DNA of 64,000 bases, from the NCBI RefSeq assembly GCF_963678865.1, contig NZ_OY787459.1, positions 2,446,501-2,510,500 of the forward strand, given 5' to 3'. Of this stretch, positions 38,441-51,108 are shown piece after piece; positions within the stretch are counted from its first letter, which is position 1, and every line of letters starts with the position of its first letter. The notes beneath the pieces were generated by a model. The model worked only from the letters and a program-made list of their open reading frames with translations, was not told the origin of the DNA and searched no databases. A program made the position numbers and the translations under genes. The DNA comes from Maridesulfovibrio sp. GTDB taxonomy: Bacteria > Desulfobacterota > Desulfovibrionia > Desulfovibrionales > Desulfovibrionaceae.

Positions 38441-40969
38441 TTATTCAGGTTGATATATGTATGACGCTGCAACCTTATCCGAAGAAAATTTATGGACAAG
38501 AGCTATGAACAAGGCAACGCCAAAAGCCACTAAATAAAATCCTTTCATCATGGTTATGCCGCTTGCACCAATGGCATTCCCCAGGGTGAATACCGTGGAG
38601 GCCACACCGAAACCAACTGCTGTGGGAAAAAAGATGGCAAAAAGCATCCATTTCCATGATCCGGTCTGCACTTTGACCATAATGGTAGCCGCAAGACATG
38701 GAGGATAAAGGGCAAAGAACAGAATTACCGCAAGGGCATGGAGTGAATTCATTCCATTATGTTTGCTTTCATTATCCATTCTTTGTTCAAGGGTCTGGTT
38801 GTCATCTGCCCCCTGCTGATAGAGCACACCCATGGTTGCCACGGATGATTCACGGGCGGCAAAAGAACTGATCAGGGCGATATTAACTTTCCAGTCAAAA
38901 CCTGCGTACCGGGTTACCGGCTCAAGTGTACGCCCGATCATACCGAAGAAGGATGTTTTGATCTTTTCTTCCTTGATTTTGCGACGCAGGGATTTCCTTT
39001 TGGACGAGAGTTTGCGCAGAGCACTATTTACCGATTTGGCTTCTTTATCACCACGGGGCTTAAGCAGCACAAACATATCCGGGTTAGCTTCCTTGAAGGA
39101 ACTGTCCACCCGTGCTGCCCCCTCTTTTCCTGAAGAATTCATGCGGGCGCGCTTGTAGTCATCGTACATATTGAGCAGGGGAAGCATATTCTCTCCGGAA
39201 GCAATTCCGGCATAGGGATTAGCGGCAATCTTTGCATCATATACTGCCACGGCTTTGGTCATCTCATCTTTATAATAATCCATACGCTCATTGCTCAGTC
39301 CGGGAAACTGGAGCAGGGAGAAAACGCATAATGAAACCGCGACAACAATCGATCCGACCTTTTTGATGTATTCCCAGGTTCTTTCAAGGGAACGCTGGAC
39401 CACACCAAAAAAAGTAGGCGCGTGGTAGTTGGGCATTTCCATGATAAACGGTGCTGTTTCACGCCCCTTGAGAACGGTGGAGGTTAACAGCTTGGCAATA
39501 ATCAGGGCCATAATGATGGTAATGGTCGAGATAAAGAACATCGCCCAGGACTTGTGCTCCGCAAAATAAATATTCACCAGCAGGGTGTAGAGCGGAATCT
39601 TGGCCAGGCAATTCATAAACGGCACGGTCAGGATTGTTGCCAGCCTTGACCTTTCATCGGGGATACCTTTGGTCGACATGATTCCCGGCACAGCGCAGCC
39701 CCCGGCAAAAACTCCACCCAGAATAAACGGCAGAGTCGATTGCCCGTGCAAGCCGAAGCTGTGGAATATGCGATCCAGAATAAAGGCTATTCTGGCCATG
39801 TATCCTGAATCCTCAAGAATGGCTATTAAGGCAAAAAGAATGAAGAAAATAGGAACATAGTTCAGCAAAGTGTTTGCACTGTCCACCATCCATAAAGCCA
39901 TGGAGCGAAGCAGTGAATCCTCTATCAACCCTGCAGAAGGTAGAAAATTGGCCACAATATCCCTGAACTTGGCAAGGATGGGCCACGTATATTTGGTCAG
40001 TTCATAACCCTGAACTATGGAAAGTTCATATATGATATAAACTGTTGCCAGCAGAAAGAAAGGAGCCAATGCCCGGTTGAGAACCCAGCGATCAATCCTT
40101 TCCGATACAGGTTGCCTGCTGTCATCTTCTTTGCTGACGCAGGCTTCCACAATTTCACCGGCCAACCGGTCTCGGCAGGTCACGATATAATCGCCGGTGT
40201 CCACACCGGATTCGTTTTCAAAATCAAGCCTGCGGCTCAGAGCATCTTCAACAATCAACTTACCTTCAGCATGTTTGGATTCAACAATCCGTCTGGCTTC
40301 AGTGTCATTTTCCAGCAACTTAATTGCCAGCCAGCGCAAGGGATAAAGAACTCCAAGGCTTGCATCCCCTGCCAACATATCTTCAAGAGCCTGGATATGA
40401 ACTTCCAGATCATTATAATCGATGGCCACCGGACGGGAATAAGAATCCTGTTTTACAGACTTGCGGATAGCTGCCTTTAGAGCCTGCTTACCTTTGCCTT
40501 TGCGCCCTACGGTAGCAACAACATCCACTCCGAGCCGGGAAGTCAATTCTTTCAAATCAACAGATATGCCCTGACTTTCAGCAACATCCATCATGTTCAA
40601 GGCTACGGTAACCGGAAAATTCATCTCCAGAACCTGAAAGGTAAAATACAGGCTGCGACGCAGACATGTCGCGTCCATAACATTGACCACTACATCCGGC
40701 TTTTCTTCAAGCAGGAATTCACGGGAAACCCTCTCCTCAAGGGAAAAGGATGTCAGACTGTAAGTTCCGGGCAGGTCCACAACTTCATAACGGACTTTGC
40801 CCTCACGGTAACTGCCGACCTTTTTATCAACTGTTACTCCGGGGTAGTTAGCGACATGCTGGTTGGCCCCGGTAAGCATGTTGTATGTTGTAGATTTACC
40901 GGCATTCTGTTGCCCCGCAAGTGCGATGAGAAAATTATCTTTCATCATACGTTTATCATCAGCGCTCAT
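38441..40969 (-). CDS. feoB: Ferrous iron transporter B
   Basis: 842 residues from the ATG at 40969, chosen for GAGGTGGAAG just upstream; a second ATG lies 12 bp earlier. N-terminal G domain: G1 GQQNAGKST (19-27), unusual in having Gln where FeoB normally has Asn-Pro, G3 DLPGTYS and G4 NMMD. A helical GDI-like region and two Gate domains with about ten transmembrane helices follow (AFILDRIFHSFGLHGQSTLP and AGFDWKVNIALISSFAARES). It imports Fe(II) across the inner membrane, driven by GTP. An insert between residues about 570 and 675 is charged and helical. It overlaps feoA by 11 bp. Confidence 0.95.
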   Translation of the reverse strand: MSADDKRMMKDNFLIALAGQQNAGKSTTYNMLTGANQHVANYPGVTVDKKVGSYREGKVRYEVVDLPGTYSLTSFSLEERVSREFLLEEKPDVVVNVMDATCLRRSLYFTFQVLEMNFPVTVALNMMDVAESQGISVDLKELTSRLGVDVVATVGRKGKGKQALKAAIRKSVKQDSYSRPVAIDYNDLEVHIQALEDMLAGDASLGVLYPLRWLAIKLLENDTEARRIVESKHAEGKLIVEDALSRRLDFENESGVDTGDYIVTCRDRLAGEIVEACVSKEDDSRQPVSERIDRWVLNRALAPFFLLATVYIIYELSIVQGYELTKYTWPILAKFRDIVANFLPSAGLIEDSLLRSMALWMVDSANTLLNYVPIFFILFALIAILEDSGYMARIAFILDRIFHSFGLHGQSTLPFILGGVFAGGCAVPGIMSTKGIPDERSRLATILTVPFMNCLAKIPLYTLLVNIYFAEHKSWAMFFISTITIIMALIIAKLLTSTVLKGRETAPFIMEMPNYHAPTFFGVVQRSLERTWEYIKKVGSIVVAVSLCVFSLLQFPGLSNERMDYYKDEMTKAVAVYDAKIAANPYAGIASGENMLPLLNMYDDYKRARMNSSGKEGAARVDSSFKEANPDMFVLLKPRGDKEAKSVNSALRKLSSKRKSLRRKIKEEKIKTSFFGMIGRTLEPVTRYAGFDWKVNIALISSFAARESSVATMGVLYQQGADDNQTLEQRMDNESKHNGMNSLHALAVILFFALYPPCLAATIMVKVQTGSWKWMLFAIFFPTAVGFGVASTVFTLGNAIGASGITMMKGFYLVAFGVALFIALVHKFSSDKVAASYIYQPE

Positions 40970-41291
40970 CTTCCACCTCAATCTGGTAAGCCTCGGTCCG
41001 CCGCAGGGTCACGCAGTAACCGGCTACCCTTAATTCAATAGGGCAGCCAAGTGTGGCGACCCGAATCACTTCAATTTTTCTACCGGGAACGAATCCCAGA
41101 TCAAGCAGTCTCTGCCTGACAGCTCCTTCCGAAAAGTGTCTGCGAATTACGCCTACCCCACCCACGGGAATATCGAGCAGACTCTTTCCCCGCATGGGGC
41201 AGGCCCTGCCTTGCTTTCTTCCGCCAGAACCACGTCCCTTTCTCCTTCCGGAAAAAACCTCGCGGTTAAAGAAATCAAATTTGTTGAACAT
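40959..41291 (-). CDS. feoA: Ferrous iron transport protein A
   Basis: 110 residues, with a longer and very basic N-terminus (RRKGRGSGGRKQGRAC) than the usual 75-residue FeoA. The SH3-like FeoA domain (about 40-108) has DLGFVPGRKIEVI and LRVAGYCVTLRR. It assists FeoB. First gene of feoA-feoB-38092-37200. The promoter and a Fur-box-like site lie directly upstream, so iron repression is likely. Confidence 0.92.
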   Translation of the reverse strand: MFNKFDFFNREVFSGRRKGRGSGGRKQGRACPMRGKSLLDIPVGGVGVIRRHFSEGAVRQRLLDLGFVPGRKIEVIRVATLGCPIELRVAGYCVTLRRTEAYQIEVEDER

Positions 41292-42979: not shown

Positions 42980-43411
42980 CTATTGTTTGCGGCAATCCGG
43001 GCAAATACCATAAAGCACCATTTTATGCCTCTTGACTGAAAATCCGTATTTGCTGGCCAGCTTTTCCTGCAGATATTCAATACGATCTTCCATGACCTCA
43101 ATCCTGCGATTGCAGCGAATGCAGACAAGATGATCATGGTGATCTCTGTTGTGGCGGCATTCAAAACGCGTCACTCCATCACCGAAATCAAGCGACTCTG
43201 CGATCCCGCTCTCTGCCAAAAGCTTGATGGTCCGGTAGACTGTAGCCGGGCTGATTGAAGGATCTCGCTTGCTGACATGAACATACAGTTCTTCACAAGA
43301 GTGATGCCCCTTGGTTCCGAGAAAAACTTCAAGGACAATGCGGCGCTGTTCAGTGGCGGCCATATTGTTCTTATTCAGAAATTCAAGAAATGTTGTTTGC
43401 GGACTTGACAT
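42980..43411 (-). CDS. fur: Fur family iron-responsive repressor
   Basis: 143 residues from the ATG at 43411, chosen for GGAGGAAAGG just upstream; the frame extends to 43516 but overlaps the operator sites. Winged HTH (about 15-80, SPATVYRTIKLLAESG), then a metal-binding domain with HHDHLVCIRC (C97, C100) and CPDC (C137, C140), the structural zinc site of Fur/Zur/PerR proteins. Position between feoAB and the P1B-ATPase genes, and TGATAAT-type boxes in front of it, point to iron sensing and autoregulation. PerR or Zur cannot be fully excluded. Confidence 0.87.
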   Translation of the reverse strand: MSSPQTTFLEFLNKNNMAATEQRRIVLEVFLGTKGHHSCEELYVHVSKRDPSISPATVYRTIKLLAESGIAESLDFGDGVTRFECRHNRDHHDHLVCIRCNRRIEVMEDRIEYLQEKLASKYGFSVKRHKMVLYGICPDCRKQ

Positions 43412-43434
43412 CCTTTCCTCCGTTGTGGATTTTG

Positions 43435-43449
43435 TGATAATGAAACTGA
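43435..43449. promoter_or_regulatory. Second Fur-box-like site near fur
   Basis: TGATAATGAAACTGA, left half-site perfect (TGATAAT), right half degenerate. 24 bp upstream of the fur ATG. Confidence 0.45.
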
Positions 43450-43463
43450 CGACTATTCTCAAG

Positions 43464-43478
43464 TGATAATGATTGTCA
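43464..43478. promoter_or_regulatory. Fur box in the fur / ferrosome-cluster intergenic region
   Basis: TGATAATGATTGTCA is a near-perfect 7-1-7 inverted repeat (consensus TGATAATNATTATCA, one mismatch). It lies 53 bp upstream of fur and 145 bp upstream of the divergent plus-strand cluster, so it can control both directions. Confidence 0.75.
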
Positions 43479-43622
43479 AGCACTAAGTGCTCACTTACAC
43501 CAAAAATAATCTGCAATTGAAACTCAATCGTATTGCTTTCAAAAAATTAAAATCCCCGGCAATTATCTTAACAATAAAACACAAACTAAAAGACGGATCC
43601 CGTTTAAACTCAGGAGGAACAC

Positions 43623-43967
43623 ATGACCACACCTACAACAACCCGAATTCTTCCGGTTGTGACCGCTTCAGCAGCTGCTACCGGAGCGCTGGTAGGCGGA
43701 ACTGTTGCGGCAGTCCGATCAACCATAGCCGTAAATGAAGGCCGGATAACCAGTTACGAGGCCGTAAAAACCGTAGCCAAAGAATCTGCAGGCACCGGAC
43801 TTGCCACCGCAGCGGGCATCGCAGCAACAGGAGTCCTTGGACTTGGCGGGTTGGCTGGACTGCTCGGCTTCACTGTAGTTGCCACCGGGGCAAAAATACT
43901 CTGGGACAAGGCGGTTCCCACTCCGCTTGACAACAAAAGCAGCAACAAGCTCAAAATAGCCTCATAG
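43623..43967 (+). CDS. Glycine/alanine-rich hydrophobic protein, FezA-like candidate
   Basis: 114 residues. Two hydrophobic segments (about 12-30, TASAAATGALVGGTVAA, and about 62-92, LATAAGIAATGVLGLGG then LAGLLGFTVVATGAKILW) contain dense Gly-x3-Gly packing motifs, between which lies a polar helix (GRITSYEAVKTVAKESAGTG). AGGAGGA precedes the ATG. First gene of the plus-strand cluster. Small Gly-rich membrane proteins with this look are typical of magnetosome and ferrosome gene sets and may bend or pack the vesicle membrane. Function by context only. Confidence 0.7.
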   Translation: MTTPTTTRILPVVTASAAATGALVGGTVAAVRSTIAVNEGRITSYEAVKTVAKESAGTGLATAAGIAATGVLGLGGLAGLLGFTVVATGAKILWDKAVPTPLDNKSSNKLKIAS

Positions 43968-44108: not shown

Positions 44109-44123
44109 TGAAATTCAGTTTCA
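44109..44123. promoter_or_regulatory. Fur-box-like inverted repeat over the ATPase promoter start
   Basis: TGAAATTCAGTTTCA fits a 7-1-7 repeat (TGAAAATNATTTTCA) with two mismatches and lies inside the longer palindrome TTGAAATTCAGTTTCAA. It is just downstream of the -10, a repressing position. Confidence 0.5.
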
Positions 44124-44173: not shown

Positions 44174-46381
44174 GTGAAAACAGAAAAAAAATACGCAAGT
44201 ATCAAACACTCCATACCGGGTAGGCTGCGGGTCCGTGTACCGAAGCTAAAACGAGACAAACTCCTTTGCAGCACTATTGAACGCAGCATGCAGCGGGTTA
44301 ACGGAGTCAGCCGGACACGGACAAACCACAAGTGCGCAACATTGGTTATCCGCTACAATCCGCATGATATTACACCTGAAATGATCTTCGAGACAGTCAG
44401 GGAACTGGTAGCCATAAATACGGCTGAAATATGTCCTATCAAACAAAAAAATGAATGCGGATGTCCGCAGGTGAAGTCGGCCCTGCGATACTTTTCATTT
44501 GTGTCGGCAGTGGGCGGGGCTGTGTTGATCAGCGAATCCCTGCTGGGAATCACAGTTGCCCAGACCCTGTTCAGCCCGTTGGGTTTCTTGACAGTGCTTG
44601 CGGCAGCCCCACTGGTCAAAGAGGCCGTAAGCAAGCTGCGTGAAAAAAAATTCGGACTTGAGGGCATCCTCGCCGGAGGTATTGTAGCTGCTGTAATTGC
44701 CGGGGAAGCCATGACCGCCTTTGAAATCCTATGGATTAATGCGGGAGCGGAACTGCTGACAGCATGGATCACCGAACGCTCCCGCCGTGCGATTTCCAGC
44801 ATTCTCGATAATACAACTCACCACACCTTTGTACTTAAGGACGGGGTTGAGGTGGAAACCGAAATAAGTGACCTGCAGAAAGGTGACGTGGTAGTCCTGC
44901 ACACCGGTGAAAAAATCTGCGTAGACGGCTCCATTGTGGATGGACAGGGGCTGATCAACGAAGCACCAATCACCGGGCGAGCGGACTTTATTCACAAGCA
45001 GCAGGATGATCAGGTATTTGCCGGAACATTCGTCCGCGAAGGAGTTATATACGTCAAGGCCGAGGAAGTGGGGGATAAAACCTATCTGGCCCGTATCCTT
45101 CACAAAGTAGAGGACTCTCTTGAAAATAAGACCGACATTGAAACCACAGCTGACAAACTTTCTGTCAGACTGGTCAAAATAGGCTTTGTCTGCACCGTAG
45201 GAACATTAGCCCTGACTCTTGACCCGTGGCGGGCATTCACCGTGCTTCTGGTCATGGCCTGCCCTTGCGCTACGGTCCTTTCCGCTTCCACGCCTATCAG
45301 TGCGGCCATAAGCACCGCAGCAAAAAACAATATCCTGATCAAAGGAGGCAGATATCTTGAAGAAGTAGGCCGCTGTGATGTCGCCTGCTTTGACAAAACC
45401 GGAACCCTGACCGGTAGTGAACCCAGCCTTGAGCATTTACACGTTGCCGGTGAGATAACGGAAGAAGAGCTGTTGACTTATGCCCTTTCCGTTGAAACCC
45501 ACAACCATCACCCGCTGGCGCAAGCCATCAAGCATGAAGCAGAAACCCGAAAACTGGCTCCCCTGCCCCACAATGTCTGTGAATATTTCTTAGGCAAAGG
45601 CATGCGCGCCGAACTCACTGAAAATGAGAACCATTCCACTGAAATTCTGGTCGGAAACAAAAAGCTTACCGAGCAATTCGATGTGCGCATCGGCAACTTG
45701 AGCAGGCAGGTTTCTAGCCTTAAACGCAAGGGGCTTACCGTACTGTACGTGGTCAAAGACAAAGAGCCAATAGGCTTGCTGGCTTTTGCCAATACCATCC
45801 GCCAGGAATCTGCAATCACCCTTGCTTCCCTTGAAGCAGGCGGAGTGACTCGCACCGTCCTCGTTACCGGTGATGAACCCGCAACAGCCAACAACCTTGC
45901 GCAGACCCTCGGTATCCCGGAAATTCACGCATCGGCCATGCCCGAAGAAAAAGCCACACTTGTCCGTAACCTTCAGTCAGAAGGGGGCAAAGTCATGATG
46001 ATTGGTGATGGCATTAACGATGCTCTGGCTCTTGCTCAGGCCGATGTCGGCGTAGCCATGGGAACCGGCGGCGCTGAAGTTGCAGTGGAGGCTGCGGACA
46101 TTGCTCTTGTGGATGATGACCTCAAAGGGCTGATGTATGTACAGCAACTTAGTCAGGACACTACAAGAATCGCCTATCAGAACTTCTGGCTGGCGACAGG
46201 ATCAAATATAGCGGGAGTAATTATGGGTGCCACCGGGTACCTTTCCCCGGTAATGGCCGGACTCCTGCACATTCTTCATACTATGGGAGTAATAGCCAAC
46301 TCTTCAAGGCTGCTCCTGCATTCCCCCGAATCAATCAAAATCGAAAAAGGCAAAATCCATGAACTTCCACAAAATTGTTGA
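44174..46381 (+). CDS. P1B-type heavy-metal ATPase with Arg-rich N-terminus, ferrosome type (ATPase 1)
   Basis: 735 residues. An HMA-like N-terminal domain (about 10-75) has PGRLRVRVP (R17, R19, R21) where CxxC would be, then a Cys-rich stretch (CPIKQKNECGC). Membrane motif CPC is C363-P364-C365; the phosphorylated residue is D407 in FDKTGTLTG; HP motif in HNHHPLAQAI; hinge GDGINDALALAQ. The A-domain motif reads TGR (R269) instead of TGE, unusual for an active pump. In ferrosome systems a P1B-6 ATPase sits in the vesicle membrane and is needed for iron loading; FezB-like role is inferred. Overlaps the next gene by 23 bp. Confidence 0.87.
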   Translation: MKTEKKYASIKHSIPGRLRVRVPKLKRDKLLCSTIERSMQRVNGVSRTRTNHKCATLVIRYNPHDITPEMIFETVRELVAINTAEICPIKQKNECGCPQVKSALRYFSFVSAVGGAVLISESLLGITVAQTLFSPLGFLTVLAAAPLVKEAVSKLREKKFGLEGILAGGIVAAVIAGEAMTAFEILWINAGAELLTAWITERSRRAISSILDNTTHHTFVLKDGVEVETEISDLQKGDVVVLHTGEKICVDGSIVDGQGLINEAPITGRADFIHKQQDDQVFAGTFVREGVIYVKAEEVGDKTYLARILHKVEDSLENKTDIETTADKLSVRLVKIGFVCTVGTLALTLDPWRAFTVLLVMACPCATVLSASTPISAAISTAAKNNILIKGGRYLEEVGRCDVACFDKTGTLTGSEPSLEHLHVAGEITEEELLTYALSVETHNHHPLAQAIKHEAETRKLAPLPHNVCEYFLGKGMRAELTENENHSTEILVGNKKLTEQFDVRIGNLSRQVSSLKRKGLTVLYVVKDKEPIGLLAFANTIRQESAITLASLEAGGVTRTVLVTGDEPATANNLAQTLGIPEIHASAMPEEKATLVRNLQSEGGKVMMIGDGINDALALAQADVGVAMGTGGAEVAVEAADIALVDDDLKGLMYVQQLSQDTTRIAYQNFWLATGSNIAGVIMGATGYLSPVMAGLLHILHTMGVIANSSRLLLHSPESIKIEKGKIHELPQNC

Positions 46382-46676
46382 GCTGGAAAAGTACCTTGAC
46401 GTGGCCCACCACATACCGGGCCGGATCAGGGTAAAATTCAGCCCGCTCATTTTAACCAGACCGGCAGCACTTGCGGCCATGAAGGAACACTCCGAAATGC
46501 CCGACGCTATCAAGGATGCCAGAGTAAACATGTCCGCCAGGTCAGTGGTAATTGAGTACGACCCCGATGATATCCGCCCTGAATTAATAGAAGAACTAAT
46601 TCAGGGGACGGACAAAGAAAAAAAAGCACAGATCATCAGCGACCTCTACGGAAGACTGATGAAAAACGCTTCATAA
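46359..46676 (+). CDS. Free-standing HMA-like protein with Arg-rich motif
   Basis: 105 residues. One HMA-like fold with IPGRIRVKF (R22, R24, K26) in place of the metal-binding CxxC, and VVIEYDPDDI as the last strand. This is the same motif as in the N-terminus of ATPase 1 (IPGRLRVRVP). It could bind an acidic partner or a phosphate/iron mineral surface, or dock onto the ATPase. Its start overlaps the ATPase gene by 23 bp, implying translational coupling. FezC-like by context. Confidence 0.75.
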   Translation: MNFHKIVELEKYLDVAHHIPGRIRVKFSPLILTRPAALAAMKEHSEMPDAIKDARVNMSARSVVIEYDPDDIRPELIEELIQGTDKEKKAQIISDLYGRLMKNAS

Positions 46677-46710: not shown

Positions 46711-47511
46711 ATGAGCACTGAAACAAGTCATTCCGAAGCAGAACACACTGCACCGCAGCAGCCCAATACTTCCCAGCCGGTGATGGGGCCGGATCAGGGG
46801 CAGCCTCATTTTTCATACACCACCCCCGGTGACCCTTATCAGGGAGCTCCGGTTTCCGGGTACGTGCAAGCTGCTGACGTTGGCGGACAGCAACCCATAC
46901 AGCAGATGCCACAACAACCGGTACAGCAGCCGGTTTACCAGCAACCTATGCAGCAGGTTCCGCAACAGCCAATGCAACAACCGGCATATCAGCAACCTAT
47001 GCAGCAGGTCCCGCAACAGCCAATGCAACAACCGGCATACCAGCAGCCTATGCAGCAGGTTCCGCAACAGCAGGTATACGGGCAACCAGTCTATTACGGA
47101 CAGCCTGTGTATGGACAAACCGTATACGGACAAACCTACCAGCAGCCGTTGCAACAAGTACCTCAACAGCCGGCACAACAACCTGTGCAGCAGGCCCCGG
47201 CAGTGGCACCCAACACATCCGAAGAACAAATTAAACATTTTGTAGACCTTGTTAAAGACACTGCGGAAGGCAAAGCAGATCCTGCAAGTTTTCTCAGTTT
47301 TTTCAACGGCATTGACGACGGGTTCTGGAAAGGCCTGCTTGTGGGGGCGGGCATAACTTTTGCCTGCACCAGCAAGACCGTAAGGTCCATCTTCACTTCC
47401 GGCGGCAAGGAAGAAATGTCCGCAGAAGAAAAGGAACGTATGGAAGATCTCAAGGCCGAACAAGAATACATGGCCGCACAGACAGCTAAAGAATCAGCAG
47501 AAAAGGAGTAA
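46711..47511 (+). CDS. Pro/Gln-rich repeat protein with C-terminal membrane segment
   Basis: 266 residues. Residues about 50-165 are low-complexity P/Q/Y, with a 17-residue unit (YQQPMQQVPQQPMQQPA) repeated twice plus a part, then VYGQ repeats. The C-terminal third (about 170-240) is ordered: DDGFWKGLLVGAGITFACTS then a basic amphipathic stretch and an acidic tail. KGLLVGAG matches KGFLVGAG in the next gene. The disordered part could form a scaffold or condensate around the mineral; this is inference. AGGAGCCAG precedes the ATG. Confidence 0.75.
   Translation: MSTETSHSEAEHTAPQQPNTSQPVMGPDQGQPHFSYTTPGDPYQGAPVSGYVQAADVGGQQPIQQMPQQPVQQPVYQQPMQQVPQQPMQQPAYQQPMQQVPQQPMQQPAYQQPMQQVPQQQVYGQPVYYGQPVYGQTVYGQTYQQPLQQVPQQPAQQPVQQAPAVAPNTSEEQIKHFVDLVKDTAEGKADPASFLSFFNGIDDGFWKGLLVGAGITFACTSKTVRSIFTSGGKEEMSAEEKERMEDLKAEQEYMAAQTAKESAEKE
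46936..47070 (+). repeat. 51-bp tandem repeat inside the Pro/Gln-rich gene
   Basis: Two near-identical 51-bp units at 46936-46986 and 46987-47037 plus about 33 bp of a third. The unit length is a multiple of three, so copy number can vary without a frameshift. Confidence 0.85.
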
Positions 47512-47836: not shown

Positions 47837-47975
47837 GCCTCCGGCATTTGGGGAAGGGAAATTTTTGAAAAAGTTCCCCTTCCCCAGCCCCCAACCCTTC
47901 AAAATATTTAATATGCTTCGCAACTAGCGCCTTTAAGCGGCCTTAGAAATATTGATCAAAAAACGCGAAGCACAT
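47837..47975. repeat. Dispersed repeat copy within the ferrosome cluster
   Basis: Carries the GCCTCCGGC end, a strong hairpin GGGGAAGGGAA / TTCCCCTTCCCC at 47850-47885, and ACGCGAAGCACATCAAAT, which matches the repeat at 63477 (GCGCGAAGCGCATCAAAT). It splits the cluster into two gene blocks and may weaken read-through. Confidence 0.55.
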
Positions 47976-48008
47976 CAAATTGCATTTAATTCCCTGAGGG
48001 TTATTACG

Positions 48009-48275
48009 ATGAACGCTTTACCTGAAAAAAATGCTTTGATTAAAAGCAAAGACCAAAAGCCATTCCGTCAGTGCAAGGACTGTCCCCTCACTCCCAGTAA
48101 AACCAAGACAGCTGCCAAGGTGGGAATGGTTGCCACGCTTGGAGCCTCAGTTGCTTCCGGTGTGCTTAAGTTCAAAGGGGCGAAACCGCTGCACCTCTGG
48201 GCCTCTTTTGCTTTTGTCGGATTCACAGCTTTGCATTGGGCGGTTTCCAAAAGACCGCAGAGGATCGCCAGATGA
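48009..48275 (+). CDS. Small membrane protein with Cys-containing N-terminus
   Basis: 88 residues from the ATG at 48009, chosen for GAGGG upstream; a longer frame starts at 47952. FRQCKDCPLT has a CxxC pair (residues near 20-23). Two hydrophobic segments follow (VGMVATLGASVASGVLK, about 36-52; LHLWASFAFVGFTALHWAV, about 60-78) with HLWAS and HW histidines, a layout like small haem- or metal-binding membrane proteins. It overlaps the second ATPase gene by 4 bp (ATGA). Confidence 0.7.
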   Translation: MNALPEKNALIKSKDQKPFRQCKDCPLTPSKTKTAAKVGMVATLGASVASGVLKFKGAKPLHLWASFAFVGFTALHWAVSKRPQRIAR

Positions 48276-50395
48276 TCGGAACTCCGAACAGAAAAAAACG
48301 TTTTGAAATTGTCCATGAACTGCCTAAACGGATCAGGCTTAAGTCGCTGATTCTGCTTGCTCCGGATCTGGACCTCAACTATCTGCAGGCCGGTGTGGAA
48401 TCCCTGCCGGGAGTAAAATCGGTCCGTATCAACGGCCCGGCCTTTTCCGTTGCCGTGGAGTATGATGGAACCCGCGAAGTTCGTTCTTCCATTCTGGCCG
48501 CACTGGACTTTATTCCCAAGGAAGCTTTCCTTAAAGGCGCTGAAAAAGAACACGGAGTAGACCTGCTTGAAGTGGGAGCGCGTACGGCTGCGGCTGCTGC
48601 AACCCCTTTCCTGCCCCTGCCTGTGCAAGCGGCAACAAGCTGGATACTGGGAATTCCCGGTATAGTGAACGGGCTTGAAACCCTTTTCTCCCGCGGGGTC
48701 AAAATCGAAGTGCTGGATGGAACAGTCAAAGCACTCTCCCTCTTACGCGGAGATTACTTCACCTCCAACTCCGTGGGCGCCCTGCTCAGCCTCGGCGAAT
48801 ACCTTGAGGATCAATCTGAACAGAAATCAACCGGCTTGCTCAAGACCCTGCTCAAACCTCAGGTAGGAAAAATATGGATAGAAAAAGACGGCCGTGAAAT
48901 AGAAATAGACTTCAACGATCTGCAAGTAGGTGACATTGTTGTCTGCGGTGCCGGGGAACTCATTCCCATTGAAGGGACCATTGTTGAAGGCGACGGTTCA
49001 GTCAACCAGAGCTCCATTACCGGTGAATCCTTTCCCGTCCACCTCCAAACAGGAGATTCCACTCTATCCGGCGCAGTGGTTGAAGAAGGTACCCTGAAAA
49101 TCAGGGCTGATAAGGTCGGAGCTGAAACAGGCATGGCCCGCATCAACCGCTATCTGGAAAACTCCCTGCGTTCACAGTCAAAAAGCCAGATCAAATCAGC
49201 CGAGCTGGCCGACAAACTGGTCCCCCTGACTTTCGGGGCCGGACTAGGTGTATACGCATTGACCGGGGATGCCGCCCGCGCTGCATCGGTCCTGACTGTA
49301 GACTACTCCTGCGCCATAAAACTCTCCACCCCGGTTGCCACCCGTACTTCCATGTACACTGCCAGCCAGTGCGGTGTTCTGCTGAAGGGCGGACAGGCCC
49401 TTGACAACCTCGCGGCAATAGACACCATTGTCTTTGACAAAACCGGAACCCTGACCAAGGGAAAACTCATTGTCACCGACATTGTCCCCATGCCCCTTTA
49501 TGAAGAGAAGGAATTGCTTTCCATTGCCGCCGGAGCTGAAGAACATTACGGACACCCGGTTGCAAAAGCGGTGGTAAACGAAGCAAAGAACCGAGGAATA
49601 GCCCTGCCGGCCGTAAGCGGAGTCGACTTCATCGTAGCCCACGGTGTTTCCGCTTATGTGGATGGTAAACGTGTTCTTGTAGGCAGCCAGCATTTTGTTG
49701 AAGAAGACGAACATGTTGACTGCTCCTATATAGAAAAAAAAGCCCGCCAGTTGCGCAATGCTGGAAAGAATCTTCTCTTTGTAGCCATGGGTGAAGAACT
49801 GATCGGCGTTATTGCCATGCGCGATGAACTGCGTCCCGAAGCCCTTGAGGCCCTCGAAGCATTCAAAGCCTCCGGGATCAAACGAATTGAGATACTGACC
49901 GGGGACCACCGCTCCACGGCATTGGCCCTTGCTGCCCAACTGCCTCCTGTGGACGCAGTACACTGGGAACTCAAGCCCGAAGACAAAGCGAATATCGTCA
50001 AAGAGCTCAAGGAAGGCGGGTCCAGAGTGGCCTTTGCCGGAGACGGGGTCAACGACACCCCGGCCCTTGTCTGCGCAGATGTGGGCATCTGCATGCCCTC
50101 AGGAGCAGACCTTGCCCGCGAATCAGCTCAGGTGGTCATGCTTAATGAAGACATGAGAACCCTTGTGGAAGCCCACCGCATCGCGATTACCAACCGCGAG
50201 ACCTTGAGCAACTGCCTATGGTCCGCAGTGGTCATCAACTCTGCCACCCTGCTGTTGGCCGGGATGGGCAAAATATCGACCCTCGCCGCCGCCATGACTC
50301 ATAACCTCAGCACCGTAGGCATACTCGGCTATGCGGCCATGAAAACCTCTTCCGCAGGGCCAAAAGATCCAGAGTCAGCAAAGGAGATCAACTAA
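48272..50395 (+). CDS. P1B-type heavy-metal ATPase with SCA membrane motif, ferrosome type (ATPase 2)
   Basis: 707 residues from the ATG at 48272, overlapping the previous stop. HMA-like N-terminus with LPKRIRLKS (R20, R22, K24) and no CxxC. A-domain TGES (E252), phosphorylation D389 in FDKTGTLTKG, HP in HYGHPVAKAV, hinge GDGVNDTPALV. The transmembrane metal motif is DYSCAIKLSTP (S346-C347-A348), not CPC. Catalytic residues are complete, so this is probably the working pump. I recall SCA-type, CxxC-less pumps among the ferrosome P1B-6 ATPases, but cannot check it here. Which ion is moved (Fe assumed) is inference. Confidence 0.87.
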   Translation: MIGTPNRKKRFEIVHELPKRIRLKSLILLAPDLDLNYLQAGVESLPGVKSVRINGPAFSVAVEYDGTREVRSSILAALDFIPKEAFLKGAEKEHGVDLLEVGARTAAAAATPFLPLPVQAATSWILGIPGIVNGLETLFSRGVKIEVLDGTVKALSLLRGDYFTSNSVGALLSLGEYLEDQSEQKSTGLLKTLLKPQVGKIWIEKDGREIEIDFNDLQVGDIVVCGAGELIPIEGTIVEGDGSVNQSSITGESFPVHLQTGDSTLSGAVVEEGTLKIRADKVGAETGMARINRYLENSLRSQSKSQIKSAELADKLVPLTFGAGLGVYALTGDAARAASVLTVDYSCAIKLSTPVATRTSMYTASQCGVLLKGGQALDNLAAIDTIVFDKTGTLTKGKLIVTDIVPMPLYEEKELLSIAAGAEEHYGHPVAKAVVNEAKNRGIALPAVSGVDFIVAHGVSAYVDGKRVLVGSQHFVEEDEHVDCSYIEKKARQLRNAGKNLLFVAMGEELIGVIAMRDELRPEALEALEAFKASGIKRIEILTGDHRSTALALAAQLPPVDAVHWELKPEDKANIVKELKEGGSRVAFAGDGVNDTPALVCADVGICMPSGADLARESAQVVMLNEDMRTLVEAHRIAITNRETLSNCLWSAVVINSATLLLAGMGKISTLAAAMTHNLSTVGILGYAAMKTSSAGPKDPESAKEIN

Positions 50396-51108
50396 TGTCC
50401 CTGACACTTGATAAAGCACCACAAGAAAAACCCCTGATACTAAGGGGAATCAGCAGCGATTCGCTCAAAACAAGATTTGAACGCATGGGACTGCACATAG
50501 GTTCAGAACTGGAAATTATGTCCGAGGACTCGGTCCAGCACCCGGTCCGCATCAAAGGACCGCAAGGCGAAGTCCTACTGGCCGCGGGGATGGCTTCGAA
50601 AATAATCGTCCATCACGATGACGGTCACAAAACCCCGGTTTTTGAAATGAATCCCGGCGAAAAAGGACACATTGAAGGACTGACCGCGGGGTCATACCTT
50701 GAAAAAAGCCTCAAAATTCTCGGAATATCCGAAGGCGATGACATTGAACTGATCCGCTGCCTGCCCCCCATGGAATACAAGACCGTGGTCGACGGCAAAA
50801 GGACCAGCCTGACCGAAGGAATGGCCGCAAAACTCTGGGGGGAGTGCGATAAAACCCCCTGCCAACTGGCGACTTGCGGTAAAGGCCGTCCCTTTGAGGT
50901 AAAAAACATCCTCGGCGGCCCGAGGGCTGCCCAATCAATAGCTTCCATCGGCATCAGGCCCGGCGCCACAGTTACACTTGAAACAGTGGAGCCGGCACGG
51001 TCCATCGGCATGACCACCGAAGCCAGAATAATCATTATGACCAAAGAAGGCTTGCGCCTGCACCTGCGACAGGATCAGGCTGAGATTATGTTTGTATCTG
51101 AACTTTAA
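50395..51108 (+). CDS. Protein with three FeoA-like domains
   Basis: 237 residues. Three SH3-like FeoA repeats: about 13-73 (LKTRFERMGLHIGSELEIM), about 82-148 (LEKSLKILGISEGDDIELI) and about 166-235 (AAQSIASIGIRPGATVTLE). Each has the helix-glycine-loop-strand (LGI-x-GD/A-x-I/V) signature of FeoA. A Cys pair and more lie in the linker (C151, C156, C161). No signal peptide or helix, so it is cytosolic. The ATG overlaps the stop of ATPase 2 (TAATG). Last gene of the cluster; it may regulate the pump the way FeoA serves FeoB. Confidence 0.8.
   Translation: MSLTLDKAPQEKPLILRGISSDSLKTRFERMGLHIGSELEIMSEDSVQHPVRIKGPQGEVLLAAGMASKIIVHHDDGHKTPVFEMNPGEKGHIEGLTAGSYLEKSLKILGISEGDDIELIRCLPPMEYKTVVDGKRTSLTEGMAAKLWGECDKTPCQLATCGKGRPFEVKNILGGPRAAQSIASIGIRPGATVTLETVEPARSIGMTTEARIIIMTKEGLRLHLRQDQAEIMFVSEL

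Follow-up and report, generated by a model that had tools for sequence, protein, structure and literature searches.

A triple-FeoA protein encoded directly behind a FezB-like ATPase in Maridesulfovibrio

What does a FeoA-type protein do when its gene lies behind a P-type ATPase? The question is raised by a stretch of 64,000 nucleotides from Maridesulfovibrio sp. (assembly GCF_963678865.1, contig NZ_OY787459.1, positions 2,446,501 to 2,510,500 of the forward strand), referred to below as the window, in whose own numbering all coordinates are given. The gene in question encodes a protein that we call tFeoA and follows directly on the gene of a FezB-like P1B ATPase, here ATPase 2. We report that tFeoA is three FeoA folds in one chain and that its linkage is to one ATPase clade. 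The role of FeoA relative to FeoB is described as debated and without consensus (PMC8980893), and a FeoA-type protein whose gene order links it to a P1B ATPase makes it possible to study FeoA without a GTPase.

Three FeoA folds in tFeoA

Pfam places tFeoA in the FeoA family (PF04023), with three separate stretches, a whole-protein E value of 6e-24 and a score of 84.4 bits against a curated cut-off of 23. In an AlphaFold2 model made with eight homologues (mean predicted local distance difference test score, pLDDT, 90.8; predicted template modelling score, pTM, 0.83) the FeoA order of strands and helices occurs three times, giving three FeoA/SH3-like barrels; confidence is low at residues 201-210 of domain 3 (pLDDT block 60). 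The gene and its domains, whose limits are approximate and taken from the model, are as follows.

50395..51108, plus strand: tFeoA, triple-FeoA protein of 237 amino acids (open reading frame, Pfam, AlphaFold2)
50395..50622, plus strand: FeoA domain 1, residues 1-76
50623..50850, plus strand: FeoA domain 2, residues 77-152
50851..51105, plus strand: FeoA domain 3, residues 153-237

Foldseek alone returned no match to the model at E ≤ 0.001. When Foldseek's own matches were re-examined with VIA-align, solved FeoA structures fitted with Z 10.6 and a root-mean-square deviation (rmsd) of 2.0 over 73 residues (2k5f) and with Z 10.3 and rmsd 2.0 over 72 residues (3e19), and the SH3-like domains of DtxR-type repressors with Z up to 11.2 (5zr6, rmsd 2.4 over 76). 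A second member of the family, L151 (42% identical), gave the same outcome, with a model pLDDT of 89.5 and Z up to 11.4 for solved FeoA. The initial annotation of this DNA had proposed three tandem FeoA-like domains at residues 13-73, 82-148 and 166-235; the Pfam stretches and the folds bear this out, and the proposed ranges are compatible with the model limits.

The reading frame is kept at 34-50% identity in other genera, which rules out a chance frame. Its ATG has one base in common with the TAA stop of ATPase 2 (TAATG, 50393-50397), and a strong ribosome-binding sequence, AAAGGAGAT, lies a few bases 5' of the ATG, in line with the earlier description of tFeoA as the last gene of its cluster, coupled to ATPase 2. 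A Pfam search of the whole genome found FeoA domains at five places, namely tFeoA and four short open frames.

Compared with single-domain FeoA (PF04023), tFeoA has the same profile stretches and a model that solved FeoA chains fit, but it joins three units in one chain, its gene lies behind a P1B ATPase and not behind feoB, and it carries family-specific histidines and, in domain 2, a conserved segment of the LPxMx[YF] type. The iron(II) transport protein A of C. thermocellum (2K5I, 162 amino acids) shares the FeoA fold but is shorter than tFeoA; its sequence aligns to tFeoA residues 82-196 (E 0.078), which would fit a protein with two or more FeoA units. DtxR/MntR-type repressors carry one or two SH3-like FeoA domains at the C-terminus, whereas Pfam detects no DNA-binding domain in tFeoA. 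A DtxR-like identity was considered and rejected: a Pfam scan at E ≤ 1 returned FeoA and a weak, sub-cut-off MazE match only, with neither a helix-turn-helix nor a metal-binding dimerisation domain, which leaves tFeoA outside the DtxR family.

To judge from the models, the chain is probably closed into a pseudo-threefold ring. In both models the VIA-align matches to single-domain FeoA run from residues 1-10 to 236-242, with 66-79 aligned residues at an rmsd of about 2-3, a pattern that a ring of three barrels, with the first strand completing domain 3, would produce. The contiguous Foldseek alignments have an rmsd of about 18.5 for 3e19 and about 10 for other FeoA chains. Spindlin, a triangular triple-Tudor protein, is also among the VIA-align matches, with a low Z of 3.3-4.2.

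Ten residues are invariant in 29 tFeoA orthologues (A8, G88, G110, P124, M126, G142, A144, Q157, L220 and V234). H73, at the end of domain 1, is kept in 28 of the 29, with a gap in the last; H92 and E94 in domain 2 are each kept in 27 and R121 in 28, and cysteine is absent among the conserved positions. By their conservation, H73, H92, E94, R121 and the LPxM segment may serve a function specific to this family; a metal site at H73/H92/E94, near the junction of domains 1 and 2, would be a guess.

Linkage of tFeoA to ATPase 2

The partner gene is listed here; its start is probably the ATG at 48272.

48236..50395, plus strand: ATPase 2, FezB-like P1B ATPase with transmembrane motif VDYSCAIKL; HMA_2-like N terminus under the Pfam cut-off

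A first scan of the genome contigs with the single tFeoA protein as query found no relative. tFeoA is present in 24 of 149 genomes of a family sample; with an alignment as query, 45 of 348 genomes of a class sample match at E ≤ 1e-8; and a phylum sample of 395 genomes gave 17 matches at E ≤ 1e-5, ten of them near full length (E ≤ 5e-34) and seven weak. Three genomes (G690, G691 and G564) hold two tFeoA matches each.

We read 29 loci (the window, L020-L028 and L111-L129) with profiles built from the cluster. An orthologue of ATPase 2 lies directly before tFeoA, on the same strand, in all 29, although in L127 it is present as a 45-residue end at the contig edge. Ten further loci came from named records, labelled Pseudodesulfovibrio, Desulfovibrio, Desulfobacteraceae, Thermodesulfobacteriaceae, Humidesulfovibrio, Salidesulfovibrio, Deltaproteobacteria and a Thiohalocapsa metagenome-assembled genome (MAG). 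Nine were testable, the tenth (L156) being a fragment cut at the contig start, and in 9/9 tFeoA stands directly behind ATPase 2, which brings the total to 38/38; the two sets may have species in common. All six other cluster genes also occur in 25 of the 29 loci, and the remaining four loci are contigs of 5-11 kb. The locus of the Thiohalocapsa MAG, a gammaproteobacterium, holds feoAB, an HMA protein, ATPase 2 and tFeoA, and the cluster profiles detected no other cluster protein in that stretch.

The converse also holds for most genomes. Close orthologues of ATPase 2 (E ≤ 6e-169, a cut picked once it was seen that the next genome follows only at 1.5e-131) occur in 27 of the 149 family genomes, and 24 of these 27 have tFeoA, which is found in none of the other 122 at E ≤ 1e-5. 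In a tree of 80 ATPases from the fetched loci, 36 of them with an adjacent tFeoA (two more, partial sequences, fell under the length filter), this label needs 4 changes, against a mean of 26.5 after shuffling and with 0 of 500 shuffles as low. A clade of 29 rows, made up of canonical-type FezB-like pumps, has no tFeoA.

In 12 of 39 loci (L114, L115, L116, L118, L119, L120, L148-L150, L152, L154 and L155) another FezB-like ATPase comes after tFeoA, sometimes beyond a fur gene, and tFeoA thus lies between two pumps. These additional pumps have the motif [FY][AV]C[AS]VK where read, and form their own clade within the tFeoA-linked side of the tree.

The gene cluster and its likeness to fez loci

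In the operon that ends with tFeoA the order is ATPase 1, an HMA_2 protein, a P/Q-rich protein, the small protein s105, a DUF4405-like protein and ATPase 2. A MamC-like gene precedes the operon, and fur, a GGDEF gene and feoAB lie on the other side.

38441..40981, minus strand: feoB (FeoB_N, E 1.1e-60)
40959..41291, minus strand: single-domain feoA (Pfam)
42980..43516, minus strand: Fur-type regulator (PF01475, E 2.9e-33)
43623..43967, plus strand: MamC-like protein (NF038051, E 1.3e-11, under the family cut-off)
44109..44123, no strand: Fur-box-like site 5' of ATPase 1, with 2 mismatches to a Desulfovibrio-type consensus
44174..46381, plus strand: ATPase 1, P1B ATPase with CPC motif and HMA_2 domain
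46359..46676, plus strand: HMA_2 domain protein (Pfam)
46711..47511, plus strand: P/Q-rich low-complexity protein with a C-terminal hydrophobic segment
47515..47832, plus strand: s105, small membrane protein, a FezA-type candidate by position and size only
47952..48275, plus strand: DUF4405/FezC-like small membrane protein (DUF4405, E 0.0092, under the cut-off)

The fez cluster of ferrosomes reportedly consists of FezA, FezB and FezC. The cluster in the window shares with it a FezB-like P1B ATPase with an SCA motif, a weak DUF4405/FezC-like match, small membrane proteins and a nearby Fur gene; it differs in having a second, CPC-type ATPase, an HMA protein, the P/Q-rich protein, the MamC-like protein and tFeoA. 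For FezA, more than one of the small membrane proteins is a candidate. The sub-cut-off match of the protein at 47952-48275 matters because the FezC of ferrosomes is reported to be a DUF4405-like haem cytochrome (PMC10979944). Ferrosomes of C. difficile are described as Fur-repressed and as needing FezA and FezB (PMC12574912). Two histidines of the DUF4405/FezC-like protein are common to its relatives.

For comparison, locus L157 (genome G525), putatively the fez locus of Desulfovibrio magneticus RS-1, holds three genes alone, fezA-like, fezB-like and fezC-like, with fezA and fezC assigned by eye; its fezC-like protein has HMA_2 but no DUF4405 in Pfam. In a comparison of 26 rows, ATPase 2 groups with this putative FezB, apart from ATPase 1 and the CPC-type pumps (split 100/100); one row, L194, is a wrong-strand frame and carries no weight.

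Another genus of the same family has, on the upstream side of the FezB-like ATPase and 0.4-0.7 kb from it, a single-domain FeoA gene in 8 of 9 canonical-type loci (L069, L071, L072, L073, L077, L079, L081 and L082, but not L078; the second ATPase copy of the ninth genome is left out of the count). No feoB was found within the 1.5 kb flanks of these single-FeoA loci, nor in the four read at 20 kb. The one protein scanned in Pfam is a plain FeoA, and three of the genomes have two FeoA matches each. The eight loci belong to related species and may represent one evolutionary event rather than eight.

FeoA domains are already known, as are tandem FeoA proteins and fez clusters. The initial annotation, which knew of no described role for such a protein, is qualified by two sources that report two FeoA-like domains in a single protein (PMC8749426) and twin FeoA domains in PgMntR (PMC4805248). 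By title or abstract, the literature searched, with Grant 2022 and Pi 2023 outside the scope, has no paper on a triple-FeoA protein of a fez cluster, nor on such a subunit as a regular member of an extended fez-like one.

Three Fur-box-like sites precede feoA (41324), fur (43464) and ATPase 1 (44109). The Desulfovibrio-type consensus has 17 matches in the window against 6.35 expected, a weak excess, and no site comes within 3 mismatches of the E. coli consensus; promoter-like sites, of which there were 4 where 6.8 were expected, were uninformative. The P/Q/Y-rich protein at 46711-47511 differs strongly in length and composition among species and retains its single C-terminal hydrophobic segment.

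Proposed role of tFeoA and the alternatives

These results suggest that in this iron-storage-type cluster of sulfate-reducing bacteria FeoA, known for assisting the iron importer FeoB, has come to assist a storage pump. The initial annotation had proposed a regulator or adaptor of the storage pump, and the linkage in 38 of 38 loci, the fez features and the single FeoA genes near FezB-like ATPases in 8 of 9 loci favour the pump as partner, regulation itself being an argument by analogy. We give about an even chance to tFeoA being a dedicated cytosolic regulator or adaptor of the FezB-like storage pump in an extended ferrosome-type cluster. tFeoA would then be a soluble accessory subunit of the ATPase encoded directly before it; its three FeoA/SH3-like modules would bind the pump at its cytosolic domains, perhaps ATPase 1 as well or, where there is one, a second FezB-like pump, and would match pumping to the Fe(II) level of the cytosol, in a manner similar to the action of FeoA on the FeoB G domain. 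We infer both the binding and the direction of regulation. FeoA-FeoB biochemistry is the reason for proposing that tFeoA touches the cytosolic, nucleotide-driven portion of the transporter directly: in B. fragilis, FeoA contacts the FeoB G domain in a nucleotide-dependent manner and stabilises the GTP-bound form (PMC8980893).

A fuller version, in which we place somewhat less than even trust, is that a branch of FeoA left FeoB and became the cytosolic regulator of a P-type ATPase, closed into a pseudo-trimer and bearing an Fe(II) site where domains 1 and 2 join, at which H73, H92 and E94 might sense the metal. If true, one kind of module would both gate iron import and switch iron storage in ferrosome-like organelles, and the partnership would exist in a second, simpler form in the genus whose single FeoA genes lie near FezB. 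tFeoA would be a candidate control subunit for ferrosome biology, missing from the canonical-type loci read.

Several observations weigh against a dedicated pump regulator. First, seven distant triple-FeoA proteins (L029-L035, six genomes), 24-29% identical to tFeoA, come from the weakly matching genomes of the phylum sample, the seventh of which (G069) has a short FeoA-type frame beside feoB only and was excluded. No ATPase of the ATPase-2 kind was found in the 9-20 kb fetched around them, so that, for the architecture as such, the initial annotation's expectation of no occurrence without a linked ATPase failed. Their domain order is that of tFeoA (best-scoring profile for domain 1 in 6/7, domain 2 in 7/7 and domain 3 in 5/7), and Pfam found three FeoA stretches in the 3/3 scanned; H73, H92, E94 and M126 are replaced in all seven, while Q157 is kept in all. 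Triple FeoA is thus found more widely than the link to the pump, as an iron-related architecture with one branch attached to a FezB-like pump. Of the seven distant genes, three (L031, L032 and L035) have feoAB close by.

Secondly, close orthologues of ATPase 2 lack tFeoA in G474, G446 and G409, and more distant ones lack it in G156, G363 and G325 of the phylum sample; the pump can thus do without tFeoA. Canonical-type loci also lack it: no FeoA was found at the putative RS-1 locus, nor, outside the genus with single FeoA genes, in the other canonical-type loci read at 20 kb save L142, where FeoA occurs together with feoB. Finally, we infer from gene content that the cluster is of the ferrosome-type iron-storage kind, FezC being assigned by a sub-cut-off match, and a feoB or feoB-like gene in the fetched stretch of 12/29 clusters and 6/10 named ones leaves room for a role at FeoB.

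Among the alternatives, the best placed, although unlikely, is that tFeoA, rather than regulating, chiefly binds Fe(II) as a chaperone or buffer and passes the iron on to HMA-type domains and the pump. The near-constant H73, H92 and E94 of the tFeoA family, absent from all seven distant proteins, would suit it, as would the HMA_2 domains on ATPase 1 and on the protein at 46359-46676 and, going by its title, a zinc-complexed FeoA structure (3mhx). However, no cysteine is among the conserved positions, and the FeoA fold is described as one for protein-protein interaction (PMC8980893).

An assembly scaffold of the storage organelle, bridging two or three ATPases, the low-complexity protein and the small membrane proteins, is less probable still. 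Three modules, the two ATPases of the window, the additional pump behind tFeoA in 12 of 39 loci and a proline-rich partner candidate in the same operon fit such a scaffold, yet the Thiohalocapsa locus keeps tFeoA and its ATPase while the profiles detect no P/Q protein there. Among whole partner proteins of tFeoA clusters, 11 have 0-1 PxxP motifs and 19 have 2-17, and three from clusters without tFeoA have 2-4 (one of these three is cut; two further proteins, masked or partial, were excluded). Binding of the SH3-like folds to the P/Q-rich protein through PxxP is unsupported, the counts not tracking with tFeoA.

We think it rather improbable that tFeoA acts on FeoB, tuning import to storage, with its location behind ATPase 2 reflecting co-regulation only. 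FeoA is the known partner of FeoB, and a feoB or feoB-like gene lies in the fetched stretch of the loci counted above; but the FeoB of the window has its own single-domain FeoA, tFeoA follows an ATPase in every testable locus, and the fetched stretch holds no feoB in 17 of 29 loci, several of which are short contigs. Least probable is a cluster passenger with no pump-specific role, for which the absence of tFeoA from the close clusters of G474, G446 and G409 speaks, but against which stand conservation over the full length, the ten invariant residues, 29 orthologues from several families and the same slot each time, even in a gammaproteobacterial MAG.

In the G446 and G409 clusters (L131 and L132), where tFeoA is missing, a gene for a SpoIIE-type phosphatase lies between feoB and ATPase 2. 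Around the distant triple-FeoA genes, ten neighbours were scanned, with matches that include Nitro_FeMo-Co, DUF2325, DtxR-type and CbiX; several of the seven stand beside Nitro_FeMo-Co and DUF2325 genes, and L029 adjoins a short DtxR-type repressor. MamC is a magnetosome protein, and the MamC-like protein of the cluster, a regular member of this iron-storage-type cluster with relatives in 26 of the 29 tFeoA loci, hints at a link between the iron-storage and magnetosome protein sets.

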